IMG/VR virus record: IMGVR_UViG_3300034198_023574 | Span: 1-21,842 of that record | Strand: one strand, 5' to 3' | From: a virus | DNA: 21,842 bases | Part shown: piece by piece, positions 1,675 through 20,718 of the stretch | Numbering within the stretch: the first letter of the stretch is position 1 | How the letters are laid out: each line of letters opens with the position of its first letter | Notes under the pieces: generated by a model | The model's database searches: none | Seen by the model: only the letters and a program-made list of their open reading frames with translations | Told to the model about the DNA's origin: nothing | Position numbers and translations under genes: made by a program

Positions 1675-2503
1675 AGGACCTAAAAAAAGAGGCCAGCTCG
1701 CACTAGACGAAGAAAAATACATCAGAGATAATGTGCTTGTACTAAGCATAGAGGAAATAGCGGAACAGCTCAACAGAAATCCCGCCCCCGTTGAAAGATA
1801 TATCGAAGAAAATAAGTTAGGTTTAGATCCCAACGAATATAACGACGCCAAGGTACTAAGACACAAACTGCATAGTAAAAATTTCTGGACAGAAATCAAA
1901 AGACAGTTCGACGAAGATAGTGGTGAACTAGAATATTTTGAAAGTTTATGGGTCAACCTTATCAAACAGTTTAGAGAAGACGTACTTCCTGCAGAAGAAC
2001 TTCAGATCAAACAATTTATCACCATAGACATTCTGATCAATCGAAGCATGAAAGAACGAAAGCGCCACATTAGCGAAACTGAAAAATTGCAAAAAGAAGT
2101 AGACAAAGAATATGCTAAATTAGAAATTGATCGAGATGTTCCACGCCTAGTTAATTTAGAGACCCAATTAAGTTTTGCCCGTAACAGTATCGCCAACTAT
2201 ACTAACGAATATACCAAATTATTAAACGAACAACAAAAAATCAGCAAAGACCTAAAAGCTACCCGTGAACAAAGAATCAAAAGAATAGAAGATGGTAAAA
2301 GCTCCTGGGTTGGCCTTATTCGCATGTTAGAGGACGAACAAATACGCGAAAGAGAAGGTCGCGAAATGGAAATTATTGCCATGGCCACCGACAAAGTTAA
2401 AACCGTTCTTAATGATTATCATCAATATGCCGACAATACATTAGATATGCCCTTCTTAACCCCCGACAGTGTTCTTCTTAAAGATATGGAAAAATCCCCA
2501 TGA
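1658..2503 (+). CDS. Probable small terminase subunit (HTH plus coiled coil)
   Basis: A 281-residue protein overlapping the sigma-like gene by 17 bases; GAAAG just upstream serves ATG 1658, and ATG 1664 is an equally possible start. Residues about 12-55 look like a helix-turn-helix unit (LDEEKYIRDNV, LSIEEIAEQLNRNPAPVERYI). The rest is highly charged and helical, with a long predicted coiled coil around residues 130-230. A DNA-binding N-terminus followed by an oligomerising helical body, placed three genes before the large terminase in one operon, fits a small terminase that selects genome ends for packaging. No residue signature proves this, and the protein is longer than many small terminases. 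It could instead be another DNA-binding packaging accessory. The helical, charged composition is clear; the function is inferred from layout and position. Confidence 0.5.
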   Translation: MAMSTKGPKKRGQLALDEEKYIRDNVLVLSIEEIAEQLNRNPAPVERYIEENKLGLDPNEYNDAKVLRHKLHSKNFWTEIKRQFDEDSGELEYFESLWVNLIKQFREDVLPAEELQIKQFITIDILINRSMKERKRHISETEKLQKEVDKEYAKLEIDRDVPRLVNLETQLSFARNSIANYTNEYTKLLNEQQKISKDLKATREQRIKRIEDGKSSWVGLIRMLEDEQIREREGREMEIIAMATDKVKTVLNDYHQYADNTLDMPFLTPDSVLLKDMEKSP

Positions 2504-3477
2504 AAATTGCCCTAGTAACAGGAATAACCGGCCAAGACGGCTCTTATCTATCAGATCTTCTACTAGAGAAAGACTATAAGGTAATTGGTTTACAAAGACG
2601 ATCTTCAACTAACAACACCCAACGCATTTCTCATTTACTGCACAATCCTAATTTTATCCTAGAGGAATTTGACCTGACTGATCCATCAGGGTGCAATAGA
2701 ATAATAGCCCAATATAAACCACATGAATTTTATAATCTAGGAGCTCAAAGTCATGTTGGAACCAGCTTTAAACAGCCATCAACTACCATAGAGATTAATA
2801 CGGTGGGCGTTGTTAATGTGCTAGAAAGCATACGAAATTTATCTCCAGATACCAAATTTTACCAAGCTAGCACTAGCGAAATGTTTGGGCGAAATTACAC
2901 AGTAAAGGATGATGAAAAGGTGCAAGACGAAAATACTCCCATGTTACCTCAAAGTCCTTACGGGGTGGCCAAATTAGCATCTCATCATATGGTTCAAATA
3001 TATCGTTCGGCCTATAATTTGTTTTCCTGCTCGGGCATACTATTTAATCATGAAAGTCCTCGTCGTGGGGAAAACTTTGTAACGCGAAAAATAACCAAAT
3101 ATATCGGCAAAGTTGTTAGAGGAGAAACTAACGAAAGATTGTCCCTGGGGAACTTGGACTCTTTTAGGGACTGGGGTCATGCTAAGGATTATGTTCGGGC
3201 AATGTGGCTAATGCTACAAAAAGATACTCCAGTAGACTATGTTATATCAACAGGATCAACACATAGCGTTAAAGATTTTCTCAAATTAGCTTTTGGATGT
3301 GTAAATCTTGATCCTAGCAACTATGTAAATATTAATCCTGATCTTTTCCGACCGGCCGAAGTAGATTACCTTAAGGGAGATTCTTCTAAAGCCAGAAACG
3401 AACTAGGATGGAATAATGATATCTCTTTTAAAGATTTAGTCATCGACATGATACAGAATGATATAGCTCATGTTTAG
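2500..3477 (+). CDS. gmd: GDP-mannose 4,6-dehydratase family enzyme
   Basis: A 325-residue short-chain dehydrogenase/reductase. Residues 8-14 (GITGQDG) are the NAD(P)-binding GxxGxxG loop. Residues 33-35 (RRS) follow the second strand as in the NADP-binding members. Catalytic residues are T125-S126-E127 and the Y154-x3-K158 pair. NHESPRRGENFVTRKI (183-198) is a hallmark of the Gmd family rather than of other epimerases. Gmd converts GDP-D-mannose to GDP-4-keto-6-deoxymannose, precursor of GDP-fucose, GDP-rhamnose and related sugars. It is somewhat shorter than typical bacterial Gmd, but the C-terminus looks complete (GDSSKARNELGW, then a short helix). Start and the preceding stop share ATGA (2500-2503), so it is coupled to the packaging operon. 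No partner reductase or epimerase is in the window, so the final sugar is unknown. Confidence 0.9.
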   Translation: MKIALVTGITGQDGSYLSDLLLEKDYKVIGLQRRSSTNNTQRISHLLHNPNFILEEFDLTDPSGCNRIIAQYKPHEFYNLGAQSHVGTSFKQPSTTIEINTVGVVNVLESIRNLSPDTKFYQASTSEMFGRNYTVKDDEKVQDENTPMLPQSPYGVAKLASHHMVQIYRSAYNLFSCSGILFNHESPRRGENFVTRKITKYIGKVVRGETNERLSLGNLDSFRDWGHAKDYVRAMWLMLQKDTPVDYVISTGSTHSVKDFLKLAFGCVNLDPSNYVNINPDLFRPAEVDYLKGDSSKARNELGWNNDISFKDLVIDMIQNDIAHV

Positions 3478-12105: not shown

Positions 12106-12365
12106 GCAATTTTATTATAGATATTATTGATACTCAAAGCAATATTATTGAAATTGAAACTAGCTATGTTGATAATATAAACAACATAGAAATTGAGAGA
12201 TATGAAACTTACAACCTAGAAATTATCAACACTGAAAAAATATTACCAAGCGATTTTCCGAATACATATCCAATGTCTAGCATTATTGGAAATTTACCAG
12301 TAAGTCGTGTTAGCGGATTAAGCAATTATTTAAATACATATACTTTTGATTGTGGTACACCTTAA
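12102..12365 (+). CDS. Small hypothetical protein in the fibre operon
   Basis: An 87-residue protein. ATG 12102 is preferred because it overlaps the previous stop as ATGA; an upstream TTG at 12093 would only add three residues. The sequence is Ile/Asn/Glu-rich (IIDIIDTQSNIIEIETSYVDNINNIEIERYETYNLEI), with strict alternation that suggests beta strands. It continues with DFPNTYPMSSIIGNLPVSRVSGLSNYLNTY, a pattern used in phage fibres before repeat domains, and ends in DCGTP, like the DGGTP end of the next gene. It may be a short fibre or adaptor piece. The function is unknown. Confidence 0.65.
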   Translation: MSNFIIDIIDTQSNIIEIETSYVDNINNIEIERYETYNLEIINTEKILPSDFPNTYPMSSIIGNLPVSRVSGLSNYLNTYTFDCGTP

Positions 12366-12379
12366 TACAGGAGAATAAG

Positions 12380-13897
12380 ATGGCAGCTCAAACAAGAATT
12401 CAATTTCGTAGAGGAACAGCTTTAGAATGGTCAGGAATCAATCCTATTCTATATGCTGGAGAAATGGGTTATGAGACAGATACTAAGAAGATTAAGGTTG
12501 GAGATGGAACCACGTTCTGGAACTCTCTACCGTATGCTACTGTTAAACCAGACGATCTTAACGAATTAGTTGATGATCGAATTAATGATTTATTAACAGC
12601 TGGTTCTAATATACAAAAAACATACAATGATGTTTCTAATACTTTAACTTTAGCAGTTACTGGAGTTTCTTTAACGGGACATTCTCATACTAGTTCAGAT
12701 ATTACAAACTTTAATACCAGCGTTAGTGGACTACTGCCTGTTAAAAGCATTATTGCTGGCTCTAATATTAGTGTTACTCCTACTGGTGATTCTGGATTTG
12801 TTATTAGTGCTAATGGAGGAGTAGATCAAAATGCGGTTAAAGATATTATAGGCTCTAGCGTTAGTGGAGTTAGTGGTGTTGTAGTTAGTTATGATAATAC
12901 TTCTAAACTTACTACTGTTGGCTTGAGTAATCCATCTCTAACATCATCCAATATAAGTGATTTTAATAGTGCTGTTAGCGGATTAATAGACGTTAAAAGC
13001 TTAGCTCAAGGAACCGGTATTAGTATTACTAATAATGCTGGCTCTCATACTATTTCTGTCACTGGCATTCCTAGTTCATTAATAACAGACTTTTCTTCTT
13101 CAGTTGGTAGTGTAGTATCTACAGAGATGGTTGGAGGTTCTGGTATATCTTTTAGCTATGATAACTTAACAAATGATTTAACAGTGAGTACTACCGGAGT
13201 ATCATATGTTGGACATTCTCATTCGTGGTCTGACATTACAGACGCATCGGGCAAAGCTACTCTAAATGAACTAGCTTATTTGTCAGGAGTTAGTCCAGGT
13301 TCTGCTAGTGCTAATAGGGCTGTTGTTACTAATAGTAATAACGATATTAGTGGATTGAGAAATGTTACAGCCACTGGTACGGTTACTATTGATGGAAACT
13401 TGGTTGTTAACGGCACCACCACCACCGTTAATAGTACAACAGTTGATATTGGAGATAATATAATAAGAGTTAATACTAGTGGATTGAGTACCGGTGGTTT
13501 TGAAGTTGTTAAACCAGACGCTAGTTCCGTATCATTGATTTGGAATAATGTTTCTGGTCGTTGGGAATTTACCGGTGGAGACGTAGCTACTACCGGATTA
13601 TTTGTTGGTAGTTTAAGTGGCAATGCTTCTACTGTTACTAATGGTGTTTATACAACAGATACTGGAACAGTTACCAGCTCCATGATAGCGGATAATACTA
13701 TCGTAAATGGAGATATAAGTGATAGTGCTAATATAGCAATTACTAAATTGGCTAGTAGTGGATTAACCCTAGGATCAACAACAGTAAATCTAGGACAAAC
13801 ATCAACAGTTTTAAATGGATTAAGTAGCATTAGTGGTACTAGTCTTAGTAGTCCAACAACGTTATATAATTGTATAGTAGATGGAGGAACTCCGTGA
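12380..13897 (+). CDS. Tail fibre protein with tropism-determinant-like N-terminus
   Basis: A 505-residue protein. ATG 12380 is chosen because AGGAG (12369-12373) lies six bases upstream; an in-frame TTG at 12350 would run through that site. Residues about 6-50 (RIQFRRGTALEWSG, LYAGEMGYETDTKKIKVGDG) match the short N-terminal domain seen in fibre proteins such as the Bordetella phage Mtd family, and recur in the 18235 gene. The middle has Ser/Gly/Val-rich repeats with two HxH motifs (GHSHTSSDI at 100-108, GHSHSWSDI at 278-286). Around residues 340-360 (GNLVVNGTTTTVNSTTV) is a motif common in fibres of aquatic phages. The very Ser/Thr/Gly-rich, Cys-poor composition fits a trimeric beta-helical fibre. 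It ends in IVDGGTP and overlaps the next gene by four bases. Confidence 0.85.
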   Translation: MAAQTRIQFRRGTALEWSGINPILYAGEMGYETDTKKIKVGDGTTFWNSLPYATVKPDDLNELVDDRINDLLTAGSNIQKTYNDVSNTLTLAVTGVSLTGHSHTSSDITNFNTSVSGLLPVKSIIAGSNISVTPTGDSGFVISANGGVDQNAVKDIIGSSVSGVSGVVVSYDNTSKLTTVGLSNPSLTSSNISDFNSAVSGLIDVKSLAQGTGISITNNAGSHTISVTGIPSSLITDFSSSVGSVVSTEMVGGSGISFSYDNLTNDLTVSTTGVSYVGHSHSWSDITDASGKATLNELAYLSGVSPGSASANRAVVTNSNNDISGLRNVTATGTVTIDGNLVVNGTTTTVNSTTVDIGDNIIRVNTSGLSTGGFEVVKPDASSVSLIWNNVSGRWEFTGGDVATTGLFVGSLSGNASTVTNGVYTTDTGTVTSSMIADNTIVNGDISDSANIAITKLASSGLTLGSTTVNLGQTSTVLNGLSSISGTSLSSPTTLYNCIVDGGTP

Positions 13898-14319
13898 CTC
13901 AATTTTTTGTAAATACTAATAAAATTTTAATTGATAATGGACAGGTGAAAATAAGAGTAGATAGTAATGCTCAAAGCACCACCACAACTACTCCAGCTCC
14001 TTCTGTAGCCGGATATATTGTTTCGGGAGCTGGTAATGTAACATATAATGGTACATATTGTTTAGATTCTGGTTTGACATCTTCATCTGGTGGCAGTAAA
14101 GTATATAAGCATCAAACAAATAATATGTACATTTATTATGGTGGTGGTTTTGCTTGGATTGGCCCTGTAGTTGGTAATCTTTATGACAATTCTGATGGCT
14201 ACTATCAATATGGAGAAAATGATCCTCTTTCATCGGGAGGATGGAGCTCATCTTCTTGCTGTGGTACAGAACTAGGTTCTTCCCCAAGCTCTGTTACACA
14301 AACAACTTGTGCAGCATAG
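13894..14319 (+). CDS. Short adhesin-like protein with Thr-rich linker
   Basis: A 141-residue protein. The start is GTG 13894: GGAGG (13883-13887) lies six bases upstream, it shares GTGA with the previous stop, and the resulting N-terminus (MTQFFVNTNKILIDNGQ) aligns with that of the next gene (MTKFYISANKTLVSNGQ). Residues 1-25 are thus a shared attachment module. Residues 29-36 (TTTTTPAP) are a Thr-rich linker. Residues about 37-141 are a small Tyr/Gly/Ser-rich domain with four Cys near the C-terminus (SSCCGTELG, TTCAA), probably disulphide or surface-exposed strands. It looks like a small tip domain on a common anchor. Binding target unknown; it may be a spare or alternative adhesin to 14371. 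Confidence 0.75.
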   Translation: MTQFFVNTNKILIDNGQVKIRVDSNAQSTTTTTPAPSVAGYIVSGAGNVTYNGTYCLDSGLTSSSGGSKVYKHQTNNMYIYYGGGFAWIGPVVGNLYDNSDGYYQYGENDPLSSGGWSSSSCCGTELGSSPSSVTQTTCAA

Positions 14320-14370: not shown

Positions 14371-16752
14371 ATGACAAAATTTTATATTAGTGCTAATAAA
14401 ACTTTAGTTAGTAATGGACAGATAAAAATAAGAGTAGATAATACTCAAAATACCACAACAACCGCGGCTCCAGCCGTATTGACAGTGGCCCGAGCCGGTG
14501 GCTCCAGCACGTTCACTGGCTCAGGTACTTCCGCATCGCCGTACACTAGAGTTGCACGCATTCGCAACGATAGTCAGGACGGTTTGATGGCAGATTCATA
14601 TGGCGTCGGTGGTGGCGGATACGCTTTCACTGCACAGGTTTCTGGAACTGCATATGTCACATGTACTTTCTATGACGAACATAACGAGGGGAACATTGGA
14701 TTCATCAAAAAGAACGGCGTGCACGGGAGCGATCTTGCCGGAGTACAAGGATCCATTATTTTTGACGGCACGACTGTCGAGGCAAGATCGTTTTCGGTTA
14801 TTTCAGGCGATGTAATCATACTCACGGCAGACAGCTACCTTACTTCATTCGAGAATGTTAGCGTGTGGGTGGTCCCGACGACGACGACCACAGCGGCTCC
14901 GACGACGACCACCACTACTACAACAGCAGCTCCTCAATCATTGTCATTTGCTGCAGCATATATTCACGGATCACCACTACCTTCTGGAGACGCGTCAGAC
15001 AATTCATATTCTCTTTCCGGATTGGGAACAGTTGACAGTCCTACAACTCTTGTGCTCGGAGCTGGAGATAATGGCTATAACCGAGTCTGGCTACAAATAG
15101 CAAGGTCCGGAACATTAAGCTACACAGTTACAGTAAGTAGCGAAAGCAATTACGACTACGGAAGTTTGTACAAATCATCAGGACCACCATCCTCTAATAC
15201 GTCATTAACTGGTTTTACTACAATAGTCAATCCAATGGCTGGAATTAATCAGACAGCGTCAGGTACAGTGTCTGTTACACAAGGAGAGTTCTTAATATTG
15301 ATGTATACAAAGGATGACTCAGCAGACGATGGCGCTGACAGAGTAACTTTTTCAGGATATATAACCACGCCAACAACAACAACAACAACAACAACAACAA
15401 CCGCGCCCAGTTTTACTCCTATGGCAGTTTTACTCACCAGCGGGACAAGCTACACGGTGCCTGCCGGTGCAGCTAGTATGAAAGTATGGGCTGTTGGTGG
15501 CGGTGGTGGTAGCTTTGGTGGCGCAGGTGGTACAGCATTTAATACTTGGAGCGTGTCTGGTGGCGACACTATAGCTTATAACATTGGGGCTGCTGGTTTA
15601 ACAGGGAATAATAATGCTACCACTACCAATGGTGGTGATACCATAGCGACATATAACGGAACTACCATTACTGGTATGGGCGGTAAACGCTACTGGAGCC
15701 ACCCTGATATTGGCCAAGGTGGTGGTTGGACAAGTAATGGCGGAGGAGCAAATGGCGGAAGCGGCGATGGAAGAGGCGGGGCAGTTGGTGGAAATAGTCA
15801 GCCAGTTTTGATTTGTGCGGGCTACAGCGAAAACGGAAGAAGACCAGCAACTAATGTCTCAGGCTTGCTGGAAGCGTTGGCTCTTGCTGGTATTAATACT
15901 ACACAAACTTGCGGATCAACAGCTGCGTTTGGATCTGGAGGTCATAACGGAGAGAAGAATGGAGCCCAGCAAAGCGCCGGATTAGGCGGCGGCGGCGGCA
16001 GGATCGATGGTGTCCAGACAGCCGGTGGCGGCGCTTTAATTCTTTATTTTACATCAGAACCTTTTACACCGACACCTTTTACTCCGATGGCCGTGTTGCT
16101 CACTAGCGGCACTAGCTACATGGTACCGGGCGGTGCAACCAGTATGAAAGCATGGGCGGTTGGTCCCGGCGGCACCTCTTGGGATTTTGCCGGAGGAGCT
16201 GGCGGTACTGCATTTAAAACGTGGAGCGTTATGGGCGGCAATACTGTTGCGTATGTTATTGGTGGCCCCGGCTGGTTCGGTGATGGTAGATCTGGTCTAT
16301 ACAGTGGTACTGGCACTCCTAGTACGGTGACGTTTGGGGGAACGACCATTACCGGAAACCCAGGACAAGGCGGATACATTCAGGCGTCACAGCCCGGCGC
16401 TGGTGGCAGCTATTCCGGCGGTGACGGTGGAGCTAACGGAGGAAACGGCGGATCAGGTGCCCGTGCCGGTGGGGCAGTCGGTGGAAACAGCCAGTCAATT
16501 CTGGTATGTTCCGGATACGAATCTAATGGTCGAAGACCCGCAACCAATGTCTCAGGCTTGCTTGAGGCAGTAGCTCTCGCTGGAGGTACTGCTATACAAA
16601 CTTGCTCAGGACCAAACCTATGGCAACAAGCTGCCTTTGGTTCTGGAGGAGGCTATGGCGAGAAATGGGCAGACGCGCTAATGGCTGGAGTAGGTGGTGG
16701 TGGAGCCTTTTACTTCGGAGGTGGTGGCGCAGTGGTACTTTACTTCACTTAA
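14371..16752 (+). CDS. Large modular adhesin with Thr linkers and tandem glycine-rich domains
   Basis: A 793-residue bead-on-string protein. Residues 1-25 repeat the anchor of 13894. Then follow: a Thr-rich linker (about 30-33); module 1 (about 35-168, beta-rich, GTSASPYTRVARI); a linker T5-AAP-T8-AAP (170-188); module 2 (about 189-333, LGAGDNGYNRVWLQIARSG, resembling lectin-like or PPC-type sandwiches); a T10 linker (about 335-344); and two tandem glycine-rich modules (348-569 and 570-793), each opening FTPMAVLLTSGTSY and ending LYFT. The last two recall glycine-rich receptor-binding tips of T-even gp38-type adhesins. The Gly-rich part is far richer in GC than the neighbouring fibre genes. 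Ribosome binding site weak (GAGA). It most probably determines host binding. Cysteines recur in each module (CAGY/CSGY and QTC) and may bond. Confidence 0.8.
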   Translation: MTKFYISANKTLVSNGQIKIRVDNTQNTTTTAAPAVLTVARAGGSSTFTGSGTSASPYTRVARIRNDSQDGLMADSYGVGGGGYAFTAQVSGTAYVTCTFYDEHNEGNIGFIKKNGVHGSDLAGVQGSIIFDGTTVEARSFSVISGDVIILTADSYLTSFENVSVWVVPTTTTTAAPTTTTTTTTAAPQSLSFAAAYIHGSPLPSGDASDNSYSLSGLGTVDSPTTLVLGAGDNGYNRVWLQIARSGTLSYTVTVSSESNYDYGSLYKSSGPPSSNTSLTGFTTIVNPMAGINQTASGTVSVTQGEFLILMYTKDDSADDGADRVTFSGYITTPTTTTTTTTTTAPSFTPMAVLLTSGTSYTVPAGAASMKVWAVGGGGGSFGGAGGTAFNTWSVSGGDTIAYNIGAAGLTGNNNATTTNGGDTIATYNGTTITGMGGKRYWSHPDIGQGGGWTSNGGGANGGSGDGRGGAVGGNSQPVLICAGYSENGRRPATNVSGLLEALALAGINTTQTCGSTAAFGSGGHNGEKNGAQQSAGLGGGGGRIDGVQTAGGGALILYFTSEPFTPTPFTPMAVLLTSGTSYMVPGGATSMKAWAVGPGGTSWDFAGGAGGTAFKTWSVMGGNTVAYVIGGPGWFGDGRSGLYSGTGTPSTVTFGGTTITGNPGQGGYIQASQPGAGGSYSGGDGGANGGNGGSGARAGGAVGGNSQSILVCSGYESNGRRPATNVSGLLEAVALAGGTAIQTCSGPNLWQQAAFGSGGGYGEKWADALMAGVGGGGAFYFGGGGAVVLYFT
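14878..14934 (+). repeat. Thr/Ala/Pro linker-coding repeat
   Basis: Codons for T5-AAP-T8-AAP within the large adhesin, using mixed ACG, ACC, ACT and ACA codons. This makes a mucin-like, probably extended linker between modules 1 and 2. Confidence 0.85.
15373..15399 (+). repeat. (ACA)9 microsatellite encoding a Thr linker
   Basis: Nine uninterrupted ACA codons followed by ACC give ten Thr in a row between modules 2 and 3 of the adhesin. Pure triplet runs can slip in replication, which would change linker length without breaking the frame. Confidence 0.9.
15412..16749 (+). repeat. Tandem duplication of a ~222-residue glycine-rich module
   Basis: Copy 1 spans 15412-16077 and copy 2 spans 16078-16749, in frame. 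They share matched segments in the same order: FTPMAVLLTSGTSY, SMK-WAVG, GGTAF-TWSV, AVGGNSQ, NGRRPATNVSGLLEA, and a final LYFT. The DNA is also recognisably similar across the NGRRPATNVSGLLEA segment. Loops between these segments differ in length and sequence. Confidence 0.9.
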
Positions 16753-16769
16753 TTAAGGAGAAACATATT

Positions 16770-17261
16770 ATGGGAAACATACTTAGAAATCCAACAAATA
16801 ATAAAGCCATTTTGCTAACGCCGCGCACTGGTAGTCATTCGCTTACTTTAGCAGCTATATCCCAGTGGTGGCCCGATACTGTGCTGAGGGATTCGGTTCA
16901 GCATCCCGCCTGCTGGATACCTCATCAAGAAAGCTACATTCATGGCACCAAAGAAAATGTTGCAATTATCATTCGTAATCCAGTCGAACGATTTAGATCT
17001 ATGATATCTCACAAAAATCTCAATATCGATGAGCAGCTTGTTAAACCCATGTACGGACCACTTCCTCAAGGTAATTTTGTACGTTACTTCCGGTTTGAAG
17101 ATCAGCTTAACGAAGCCGCCGAATGGTTGGGCTTGCAGACACCTCTGTCTCAGGAAGACGTTAGCGATCCGGTCGATAAACCAATATTGACACCAGAACA
17201 AGAAGCAAGAGTACGTGAGATTTATGCTGATGATATAGTTCTTTGGGAATCTTTGCAATAA
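16770..17261 (+). CDS. Small sulfotransferase-family protein
   Basis: A 163-residue protein; ATG 16770 follows AAGGAG (16755-16760), and the longer in-frame extension upstream only reads through the adhesin gene in another frame. Residues 17-25 (TPRTGSHSL) match the PAPS 5'-phosphosulfate loop of sulfotransferases. Residues 64-78 (VAIIIRNPVERFRSM) match the 3'-phosphate motif, with R69 and S77 spaced as in known enzymes (R-x7-S). The C-terminus (LTPEQEARVREIYADDIVLWESL) is the usual end of bacterial family members. It is shorter than most, so the acceptor-binding part is minimal. The reaction would move sulfate from PAPS to a hydroxyl, most often on carbohydrate or Tyr. It lies between the Thr-rich adhesin and a glycosyltransferase, which suggests an acceptor on virion or host glycans. 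Related nucleotide-binding folds remain an alternative. Confidence 0.78.
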   Translation: MGNILRNPTNNKAILLTPRTGSHSLTLAAISQWWPDTVLRDSVQHPACWIPHQESYIHGTKENVAIIIRNPVERFRSMISHKNLNIDEQLVKPMYGPLPQGNFVRYFRFEDQLNEAAEWLGLQTPLSQEDVSDPVDKPILTPEQEARVREIYADDIVLWESLQ

Positions 17262-17273
17262 TACTTATAGTTC

Positions 17274-18137
17274 ATGAATAATAAATTACTAACAATAGGC
17301 ATAACTTGTTACGATGATTTTGATGGAGTTTATTTTACAGTTCAAAGCTTAAGAGCACATCATTCAATCTTAAAAAATAATGATATAGAAATAATAGTAC
17401 TAGACAACAATCCAGACAGTGTTCATGGTCAAGAAACAGCTAAGTTTATAAATGGTTGGGCTTCGGATGTTGCTAAGTACTTTCCTCTCAAAGATAAGCC
17501 AAGTTCTTTTAATAAATATAAGATAGTTGATCATGCTAACGGTCAATATGTTCTAATTTTAGATTGTCATGTATTATTAGTAAATAATGCTATAGAGTCC
17601 TTATTAAACTACTACAAAGACCATCCAGACTGTAAAGATTTAGTTCAGGGTCCTTTACTCTACGATGATTTAAAAAATTGTGCCACAGAGTTTAAGGACG
17701 AATGGAGAGGGGATATGTATGGCATATGGTGGAATAATAATGAGGCTTTAGCTAAGAATGAACCTTTTGAAATAAAGATGCAAGGCATGGGTTTGTGTTC
17801 GTTTGAGAAAAAGAATTGGCCGGGCATTTGTCAGTACTTTAAAGGCTTTGGGGCCGAAGAAGGATATCTATCAGAGAAGTTTAGGAGAAACGGAGGAAAG
17901 AATATTTGTATTCCCCAACTTAAATGGATTCACCGATTTGGCCGACCTAATGGAGTTAAATATCCACTAATATTAGAAGATAGAATATGGAATTATTTTG
18001 TGGGGTGGCTTGAAATAACCAGAGATCCTAATCACCATATGATAGTTGATACTTATAATCATTTCAAAGGAAGAATACCACCAGAGAGCCTAGATAATAT
18101 CCTAGAACGAGCAAAAAATAAGATTCTCAATACCTAA
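17274..18137 (+). CDS. Family 2-type (GT-A) glycosyltransferase
   Basis: A 287-residue soluble GT-A enzyme with no membrane segment. The nucleotide-binding N-terminus is TIGITCYDDFDGVYFTVQSL with LDNNPDS (43-49). The metal site is D97-C-H99 in ILDCHVLL, a DxH form rather than DxD, as in polypeptide GalNAc-transferases. MQGMGL (169-174) precedes an acceptor-loop region, then GFGAEEGYLSEKFRRNGG (191-208) carries the catalytic acid candidates E195/E196, followed by H220 in WIHRFGRP. This set is typical of bacterial family 2 enzymes and close relatives. Donor and acceptor cannot be read. The gene starts 12 bases after the sulfotransferase stop with no obvious ribosome binding site, so the two are probably co-translated, and it precedes a promoter for the next fibre. 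Confidence 0.85.
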   Translation: MNNKLLTIGITCYDDFDGVYFTVQSLRAHHSILKNNDIEIIVLDNNPDSVHGQETAKFINGWASDVAKYFPLKDKPSSFNKYKIVDHANGQYVLILDCHVLLVNNAIESLLNYYKDHPDCKDLVQGPLLYDDLKNCATEFKDEWRGDMYGIWWNNNEALAKNEPFEIKMQGMGLCSFEKKNWPGICQYFKGFGAEEGYLSEKFRRNGGKNICIPQLKWIHRFGRPNGVKYPLILEDRIWNYFVGWLEITRDPNHHMIVDTYNHFKGRIPPESLDNILERAKNKILNT

Positions 18138-18234: not shown

Positions 18235-20718
18235 ATGCCAGCAAATGACCTAATCATATTTCGTAAAGGATCTGCTGCCCAATGGACATCGAGCAATCCA
18301 ATATTAGCCAGTGGAGAGCCCGGATTTGATCTTACAAACAGCGTTTTTAAAATCGGTGACGGAGTTTCGAACTGGCAATCTTTAAGTTCTCACAAGCACA
18401 ATATTAGCGATATTAATAGTTTTGCATCTGGTGTTGCTGATGTTCTTAATACGGAAATGGTTGGCGGTAGTGGAATATCATTAATTTATAATAGTCAAAC
18501 TAATACGATCACTATTAGTGTTACAGGTATAATATCAGGATCTTCTGGTGAGGGTAATAGTGGACCAATTACTGTTGCAGATATCACAGATTTTAATAGT
18601 GGAGTTAGTGGCTTAATACAAAATATTTATGCTCCATTAAGTAATCCAGTTTTTACTGGGGTTCCAATAGTTCCTACAGCAAGCTCAGGATCTAATAATA
18701 ATCAAATAGCTAATACTCAGTTTGTAAGAAATGAAATAGCTAGCGTTATTAATTCTGCTCCTGAAGCATTAAATACTTTATATGAACTAGCTGGTGCTTT
18801 AGGTAATGATAATAATTTTGCTACAACCGTTACTAATAGCTTGTCCAACAAAGCGTCATTAAGCGGGGCAGTTTTTACAGGATCAGTAACTATACCTAGT
18901 GGCTCTATCAACGCCACAATACTGTCTGTTACAGGAGTTCCAGTATCAGTTAGTGGCCACTCTCATTCTAGTTCTGACATAATAGGTTTAACTAGCACTA
19001 TAGAATCGACGCTTGACACTAGTCTAGTTGGTGGAACAGGTATAGTTTTAAGCTTTGACCAAAATACACAAACACTATCTATCAATGCTTCTAATACTGG
19101 ACTCTCATTAAGCAGCACCGACTCATTACCAGAAGGATCGTCCAATCTTTATTTTACAAATTCAAGAGCCTCAGGAGCATCTCCTGTCAAAAGTGTTGCT
19201 GGTAAAACAGGAATTATTACATTATCAGGTTCTGATGTTGGATTAGGTAATGTAGATAATACTTCTGATACAAATAAGCCAATAAGTTTAGCTGTTCAAT
19301 CAGGACTAGATTTAAAAGCAGCTTCGGTTCATAGTCATATTATATCAGAAATTTCTGGACTACAATTATCTTTAGACAATAAACAATCTTCAGGCAATTA
19401 TGCTTTAGTAGATAGTTCTGCTAACTTTAGTAGTTTAAGTGTTAATTCAACAGTAGTGAGCCTTTCGGGCCACTCTCATTCATATTCTGATATTACCAAT
19501 TTTTCATCTGGAGTTGCTAGTTCTCTTAATACGGAGCTAGTTGGTGGAAGCGGAATATCTTTAGTATATAATAGCAACAATAATACTGTTAATATTAGCG
19601 TAACTGGCATAGTTTCTGGTGGTGGAGGTATTACTGGTCCTATCAGTACATCCGATATAACAGATTTTAATACTGGAGTTAGTGGTTTAATTACTAATTA
19701 TGCCCTATTAAATAGTCCAGCATTAACAGGAACACCAATAGCTCCAACAGCGCCCACAGGAACAAATTCCAATCAGATTGCTAGTACAGAGTTTGTTAGA
19801 AACGAGATAGCCAACCTAGTAGCTTCTGCTCCATCAACTCTTGATACATTGAATGAAATTGCATTATCTCTTAATAATGATGCTAATTTTAGCTCTACCA
19901 TAGTTAGTGGATTAGCTAGTAAAGCTTCTTTAAGTGGTAGCATTTTTACTGGTTCTGTTAATATACCAAGTGGTTCTATCAATGCTAATATTTTAACAGT
20001 TAATAATATTCCGGTTTCAGTAAGTGGACATACCCACATAGCTAGCAACATTAGTGGTTTAGATACTGCTATCAATAATCAGCTTGATACATCTATTGTT
20101 GCAGGATCAGGTATAACTTTTACTTATGATAGCGGAAGCAGCAGTTTAACTATAAGCACTAGCGGAGGCTCATTTGGAGGAGGCGGTGCTCAGGGAACTA
20201 TGGGGATTCAAGGAATTCAAGGATTAGAAGGTATTCAAGGTATCCAAGGTACCATCGGAACTCAAGGGGTTCAAGGCTTAGAAGGAGCCCAAGGGATTCA
20301 AGGCACTATTGGTATCCAAGGAATTCAAGGCTTAGAGGGCGTTCAAGGCACTATTGGCGTTCAAGGTATCCAAGGTACCATCGGCACCCAAGGAATTCAA
20401 GGCACTAGCGGAACAATAGATCAACTATACTCAATAGGCAGTTCATCTACAACTAAAACACTGTCTTTAGGTAGCGGAAATGTGCAAACAGTATCTCTTG
20501 ATGCGAATTGTGTATTTACTATGCCTTCTGCTTCTGCGGCTGCAAATCTTACATTAATTATAAATCAAACAGGCTCTTTTACCGCAACATTTACAGGAGT
20601 TAAATGGGGAGGAGGAGTTGTCCCGACTATAACTACAGGATCTGGTAAAATAGACATCATAAGCTTCATATCAGATGGTACAAATTGGTATGGAGGTATT
20701 GTACAAAACTTATTATGA
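18235..20718 (+). CDS. Long tail fibre with HxH motifs and collagen-like stalk
   Basis: An 827-residue protein. AGGA lies 12 bases before ATG. Residues 7-45 (IIFRKGSAAQWTSSNP, ASGEPGFDLTN, KIGDG) repeat the N-terminal domain of the 12380 fibre. Residues 51-275 and 411-632 are an internal duplication, each with an HxH motif, NTE(M/L)VGGSGISL, QFVRNEIA or EFVRNEIA, TL-E-A, and a second HxH motif. Between them is NLYFTNSRASGASPVKS with VGLGNVDNTSDTNKPIS, a motif widespread in phage fibres. Residues 654-725 are 24 Gly-X-Y triplets rich in GIQ, GTI and GLE. The C-terminal ~100 residues (FTGVKWGGGVVPTITTGSGKIDIISF, DGTNWYGG) match a fibre tip domain common in aquatic phages. It is a trimeric distal fibre in all likelihood, and overlaps the next gene by four bases. 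Confidence 0.88.
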   Translation: MPANDLIIFRKGSAAQWTSSNPILASGEPGFDLTNSVFKIGDGVSNWQSLSSHKHNISDINSFASGVADVLNTEMVGGSGISLIYNSQTNTITISVTGIISGSSGEGNSGPITVADITDFNSGVSGLIQNIYAPLSNPVFTGVPIVPTASSGSNNNQIANTQFVRNEIASVINSAPEALNTLYELAGALGNDNNFATTVTNSLSNKASLSGAVFTGSVTIPSGSINATILSVTGVPVSVSGHSHSSSDIIGLTSTIESTLDTSLVGGTGIVLSFDQNTQTLSINASNTGLSLSSTDSLPEGSSNLYFTNSRASGASPVKSVAGKTGIITLSGSDVGLGNVDNTSDTNKPISLAVQSGLDLKAASVHSHIISEISGLQLSLDNKQSSGNYALVDSSANFSSLSVNSTVVSLSGHSHSYSDITNFSSGVASSLNTELVGGSGISLVYNSNNNTVNISVTGIVSGGGGITGPISTSDITDFNTGVSGLITNYALLNSPALTGTPIAPTAPTGTNSNQIASTEFVRNEIANLVASAPSTLDTLNEIALSLNNDANFSSTIVSGLASKASLSGSIFTGSVNIPSGSINANILTVNNIPVSVSGHTHIASNISGLDTAINNQLDTSIVAGSGITFTYDSGSSSLTISTSGGSFGGGGAQGTMGIQGIQGLEGIQGIQGTIGTQGVQGLEGAQGIQGTIGIQGIQGLEGVQGTIGVQGIQGTIGTQGIQGTSGTIDQLYSIGSSSTTKTLSLGSGNVQTVSLDANCVFTMPSASAAANLTLIINQTGSFTATFTGVKWGGGVVPTITTGSGKIDIISFISDGTNWYGGIVQNLL
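20194..20409 (+). repeat. Collagen-like Gly-X-Y repeat region
   Basis: Twenty-four consecutive nine-base units encode Gly-X-Y triplets without proline (mainly GIQ, GTI, GLE, GTQ, GVQ). A longer pattern GIQGIQGLEG recurs three times. The DNA units (for example GGTATCCAAGGTACCATC) repeat closely, so recombination or slippage between units is possible. Confidence 0.92.

Follow-up and report, generated by a model that had tools for sequence, protein, structure and literature searches.

Two divergent TNF-like, glycine-rich modules in tandem at the end of a putative phage fibre protein, and the partner gene that follows them

A fibre gene of an uncultured tailed phage ends in two old and divergent copies of one glycine-rich module. 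It is best explained, with a probability of about 0.72 and largely by analogy, as encoding a fibre with two receptor-contacting heads of the Pam3 gp24 type, whose tip and downstream "partner" gene make up a swappable host-recognition cassette. The gene product would be a tail-fibre or adhesin protein ending in two TNF-like, glycine-rich tip domains: in each of these a conserved β-sandwich with its glycine motifs would hold up hypervariable loops, and the loops, like those of Pam3 gp24 and the gp38 adhesins, would contact the host surface. Because the copies are old and their loops strongly different, the fibre most likely has two heads of different fine specificity, with which it would either bind more avidly or choose between receptors. 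The tip would be exchanged among phages together with the partner gene directly downstream.

The gene lies in IMG/VR record IMGVR_UViG_3300034198_023574, a genome fragment of 21,842 bases, classed as linear (this whole stretch is "the window" in what follows), with terminase, capsid-region and fibre genes. Its terminase has about 24% identity to those of Staley/Slash-like Bacillus phages and 23.5% to that of Microcystis phage MaeS; its capsid gene has 20% identity to that of Bacillus phage G. Another IMG/VR record, L003 (L numbers are our handles for viral records and loci), is 100% identical to the window over 13,949 bases, both module copies included: it is the same phage, and perhaps no independent assembly. 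The packaging genes of the window have a GDP-mannose 4,6-dehydratase gene in their midst (2500-3477; PF16363, E 9.3e-118). The fibre locus itself is laid out as follows:

14371..16752, plus strand: fibre/adhesin gene of 793 aa; domains strung like beads between Thr-rich linkers (as many as 10 Thr in a run)
14371..14478, plus strand: N-terminal anchor, ~36 aa, in common with the upstream ORF 13897-14319 (E 4.7e-10)
14479..15411, plus strand: two domains of no assigned family between Thr-rich linkers
15412..16050, plus strand: glycine-rich tip module, copy 1
16051..16077, plus strand: short linker joining the copies
16078..16749, plus strand: glycine-rich tip module, copy 2
16770..17261, plus strand: partner gene, 163 aa, with sulfotransferase-like motifs and a purine-rich stretch just 5' of its ATG

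The two modules are the last 446 residues of the fibre protein, in a single open frame. A preliminary description, made from the letters of the DNA, had read 15412-16749 as two copies of ~222 residues, and this is borne out: the copies are spaced 666 nt (222 codons) start to start, 62% of their aligned residues are identical, and one half finds the other by BLASTP at E 7e-46. Terminal position is the rule: the last module ends at most 1 residue from the end of the ORF in 32 of 34 module ORFs, the exceptions being L010, in which the ORF reaches the contig end, and L028. (In L028, 2316-4421, the module appears by eye to be followed at the same protein's end by an FN3 domain and a different glycine-rich domain, that is, a mixed two-tip protein.) Upstream of the tip, a Pfam search with the product of 14371-15411 returned zero matches at E 1; the second of the two inner domains has relatives in L037 and L039.

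Several neighbours of the gene deserve a note. The small upstream ORF (13897-14319) has not only the anchor but also a Thr linker in common with the fibre gene, so that the locus consists of two adhesin-like genes on a common base. Two more fibre-like genes, at 12350-13897 and 18235-20718, each bear an Mtd_N domain, the latter with collagen-like GIQGIQG repeats as well. At 17274-18137 there is a glycosyltransferase family 2 (GT2) gene (Pfam E 3.7e-8) with at least 80 relatives among viral contigs. The thought that this neighbour glycosylates the Thr-rich linkers found no overall support in counts of Thr-rich ORFs near GT2 genes: one lies within 3 kb at 12 of 65 distinct GT2 loci among the matches listed. 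At partner-gene loci a Thr-rich ORF lies anywhere on the plus strand in 24 of 77, over regions unequal in size to the 3 kb of the GT2 comparison. The closest GT2 relatives do seem enriched in nearby Thr-rich ORFs (7 of the first 8 rows).

Copy 2, modelled with AlphaFold2 as a single chain with 21 family sequences, gives pLDDT 89.3 and pTM 0.90, and the best solved match to that model is fibre gp24 of cyanophage Pam3 (7ypx_A: 169 residues aligned at Z 17.3, rmsd 2.6 and 25% identity). The tail tip of mycobacteriophage Bxb1 (9d93, chains Qa/Qb) comes next, with Z 13.0 over 167 residues, and then the TG domains of ALK/LTK, with Z about 8. Since these receptors have glycine-rich TNF-like folds too, fold alone is no proof of phage-host binding. 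Like the Pam3 gp24 tip, the module has a predicted TNF-like sandwich with a glycine-rich lattice, hypervariable stretches between its glycine motifs, and a distal, C-terminal position in a fibre protein. Fold likeness to Pam3 gp24 and C-terminal position together lend support, through modelling and analogy, to the preliminary description's naming of a receptor-binding module. The nearest predicted viral proteins are mostly glycine-rich or unnamed ones from uncultured tailed phages, with some giant-virus collagen-like proteins among them. In a model of the tandem both domains fold (pLDDT 84.1), but the pTM of 0.62 is too low to fix how they are placed relative to each other.

How do the two copies differ? 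Columns were classed as frame or loop by means of 31 other rows of the family; the window copies and their nearest relative, the single-module L022, had no part in the definition. So classed, the window copies have the same residue in 91 of the 108 frame columns, with zero gaps, and in 37 of the 100 loop columns; another 22 columns are gapped. The predicted structure draws the same line: of the 56 residues in predicted strands and helix 12 differ between the copies (gaps counted as differences), and of the 168 outside 84 do. Common frameworks and differing loops, as noted at the outset, thus survive alignment, and loops and framework have not diverged equally: from frame to loops, pN for the pair goes from 0.093 to 0.467, and pS from 0.586 to 0.671. 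With pS similar and pN different between the two classes, the contrast reflects constraint, rather than age or recombination. It is also family-wide, with mean identities of 0.78 in the frame and 0.23 in the loops (561 pairs, 34 modules); against the trend of those 561 pairs the loops of the window pair are more alike than predicted (residual +0.11, SD 0.08).

These data lend no support to the proposal of one diversifying and one preserved copy: both copies have diverged, with end branches of 0.73 and 0.90 (the single-copy relative L022 has 0.75), and loop dN/dS, where finite, is below 1. Over 14 pairs, dN/dS where finite ranges from 0.03 to 0.28 in the frame and from 0.14 to 0.91 in the loops (loop dS being saturated in 2 pairs). 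Diversifying selection on one copy was not seen, in a weak test, the loop dS of the window pair (1.69) being near saturation. Gene conversion between the copies was likewise considered and rejected: 67 of 124 same-residue codons differ, and the longest unchanged run is 5 (p 0.79).

Finite loop dN/dS values below 1 mean that relaxed constraint suffices for the divergence of the loops. Might the second copy then be "merely" a structural spacer or a redundant duplicate, with only the terminal copy binding and the inner loops drifting? The absence of visible positive selection suits that idea, which we nevertheless consider unlikely: the frame of both copies is strongly constrained (frame dN/dS 0.09), and the loops of copy 1 have not decayed, there being zero frame gaps in 108 columns. 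A second alternative, targeted mutagenesis of one copy by a diversity-generating retroelement or the like, is suggested by the Mtd_N domains of the neighbouring genes, since a protein known to be targeted by such a retroelement begins with Mtd_N. It is very improbable, and was rejected on the spread of mismatch types between the copies (C/T 54, A/G 39, A/T 39, C/G 36, A/C 31, G/T 30); divergence at synonymous sites is the same in the frame as in the loops, and no reverse transcriptase was recognised in the ORF list of the window, itself a fragment.

Copy number varies among relatives. (A technical note: the set of module ORFs was gathered by short-motif scans of viral contigs and from loci fetched for neighbouring genes, so that the family is larger than counted; a module was counted if at least 70% of the model was covered.) The matches listed include at least 43 distinct ORFs with a module; 39 have it once and four (the window, L010, L040 and L144) twice. 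One-copy alleles, which the preliminary description had thought worth seeking, accordingly abound (39/43), and the two-copy state is not fixed in relatives; three-copy ORFs, the other allele it had envisaged, number zero of 43 among the matches listed. That most relatives do with one copy again suits a spacer or duplicate; that L040 and L144 each keep two distinct copies speaks against it. In a tree of 47 modules, copy 1 of L040 groups with copy 1 of L144, and copy 2 with copy 2 (100/100 each): the two loci share, as judged from their sequences, an old tandem of two different modules. The copies of L010 fall into a group with the single modules of L013 and L028 (100/100). Two-copy tips thus sit on three or more branches of this tree, which, with the L040/L144 tandem, indicates that tandem tips can persist as two distinct heads.

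Whether the window's own tandem arose by local duplication or by the addition of a related module from another phage is a separate question. The two copies and the L022 module form one group (99/98), and sister pairing of the copies has a support of 85/0; each is as close to the L022 module (63%) as to the other. This closeness and the equivocal pairing favour addition, as do the placement of the L040/L144 copies on different branches and the module exchange seen in L034/L037 and L022/L040. The well-supported common group points the other way, and the somewhat elevated loop identity of the window pair fits an old local duplication too. We regard addition as a real possibility, if one somewhat short of an even chance.

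L022 and L040 come from related phages, to judge by the four proteins flanking the fibre region (88, 91, 93 and 97% identical); other fibre-region proteins are 36-66% and other neighbours 64-69% identical. At the same fibre locus, the tip of L022 is a single copy of the window's kind, and that of L040 is a pair of another kind. DNA identity between them climbs from ~0.70 to 0.97 at L022 position ~8740, in the last codons of the partner gene; only this downstream boundary is sharp, the upstream one not. The tip and partner gene of L022 resemble the window's (the partners are 82% identical), while its other proteins match the window's only in short, Mtd_N-like N-termini. L034 and L037 have a single block in common, 1.3 kb at 85.5%, consisting of module and partner gene: it begins some 100 nt ahead of the module and stops about 70 nt past the partner. 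Both comparisons fit the joint exchange of tip and partner gene. (L037/L039 was discarded as an exchange case, its module divergence being little above that of the surroundings.) With tip and partner replaced as a unit, as this reading has it, tips with one copy and tips with two would be alleles of a single cassette, and their presence at one locus in related phages makes the gain or loss of a second head directly comparable.

Of 41 loci with a module among the matches listed, 35 have the partner gene as the next gene after it (profile search, near-identical contigs counted); those without it are L010, where the contig ends, L013, L028, L035, L075 and L078. Distance matrices of module and partner are correlated (Mantel r 0.58, 37 pairs; 0 of 5000 permutations as high), to which shared phage ancestry could contribute. 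Viewed from the partner's side (its loci are 16770-17261 of the window and L049-L205), 39 of 62 distinct partner proteins follow a module, 7 begin a contig and so have no ORF before them to judge by, and the other 16 stand behind a different ORF. Two of the 16 come after a first partner copy and one lies at a distance of 303 nt; the ORFs preceding the remainder resemble, by eye, other fibre proteins. Standing as it does behind other, unrelated fibre tips also, the partner family may be a general fibre companion. In L194 and in L197 (5920-7024 in each) two partner copies are arranged in tandem behind a different fibre-like ORF.

What is the partner? Its motifs make a sulfotransferase origin likely. 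R19, H45, P46, R69, E73, R74 and S77 are present in all 25 of 25 sequences, and G21, S22 and S24 in at least 90% of them; R19/G21/S22/S24 and R69...S77, eight residues apart, we take to be the 5'-PSB loop and the 3'-PB Arg...Ser of PAPS-dependent sulfotransferases. Of the 25 members, 18 weakly match phrog_3347 (galactose-3-O-sulfotransferase; best E 0.0028) and 2 weakly match Sulfotransfer_2 (best E 0.041); a Pfam search with the window's own partner protein gave no sulfotransferase match, and the family had no relevant match in the PDB. No chaperone family from Pfam, PHROGs or NCBIfam came up that would make it a TFA-type chaperone like gp25. Its role we infer only tentatively: tip and sulfotransferase-like partner might be a co-inherited cassette in which the partner sulfates the tip (or aids its folding) or sulfates the tip's host glycan, a specific proposal that we hold to be rather doubtful. 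A phage swapping its tip would then swap the matching enzyme along with it, and a tandem tip would provide two specificities served by one partner. Should the partner indeed be an enzyme tied to the tip, receptor recognition and chemical modification would be combined in one exchangeable unit, and that unit would be a marker by which metagenomes could be searched for host-recognition genes.

A tblastn search of 50,697 phage records with the fibre protein, copy 2 and a relative's module gave no match, the low-complexity filter that was on making it a weak search for the module; the same search with two partner proteins also gave none, and two scans of genome contigs produced zero confirmed relatives. 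Neither a tandem of this tip nor its pairing with the partner was found in literature whose coverage leaves most subscription journals outside.

Single glycine-rich TNF-like tips are already known from structures; what is seen here is their one- and two-copy forms across uncultured phages. The closest known system is Pam3 gp24 (7ypx, 7yfw), which has in common with the window's module the TNF-like sandwich with its glycine-motif lattice, the hypervariable distal loops and the location at the fibre end. Its TNF-like domain is described as bearing glycine motifs; the stem is conserved, the tip is hypervariable and is the proposed determinant of host specificity. Pam3 gp24 differs from the window's fibre in having one head per chain, a helical shaft and a chaperone, gp25 (PMC9608196). 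The window's fibre would have two heads on each chain, carried by Thr-rich linkers, and the gene downstream is not the same. The gp38 adhesins of S16 and PP01 (T2-type phages) are alike in placing glycine-rich motifs between receptor-setting hypervariable loops (PMC6851490, PMC12892980), and for PP01 gp38 cross-linking is reported to put such loops on OmpC (PMC12892980); unlike the module, gp38 is a separate protein with its glycine lattice on a β-helix. (S16 gp38, 6F45, is absent among the 50 and 27 structural matches listed, which excludes nothing.) Among curated families, PF21722 (Gly_rich_2) is matched by 10 of 21 family members at E ≤0.1 (best 1.7e-10), while the window protein, at 18.2 bits, falls below the gathering cut-off of 24.3. 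The Bxb1 tail tip belongs to the same fold class in a different phage and context. The TG domain of ALK/LTK, like the module, has a TNF-like, glycine-rich fold, but it is a eukaryotic receptor domain, and its glycine region is much larger.
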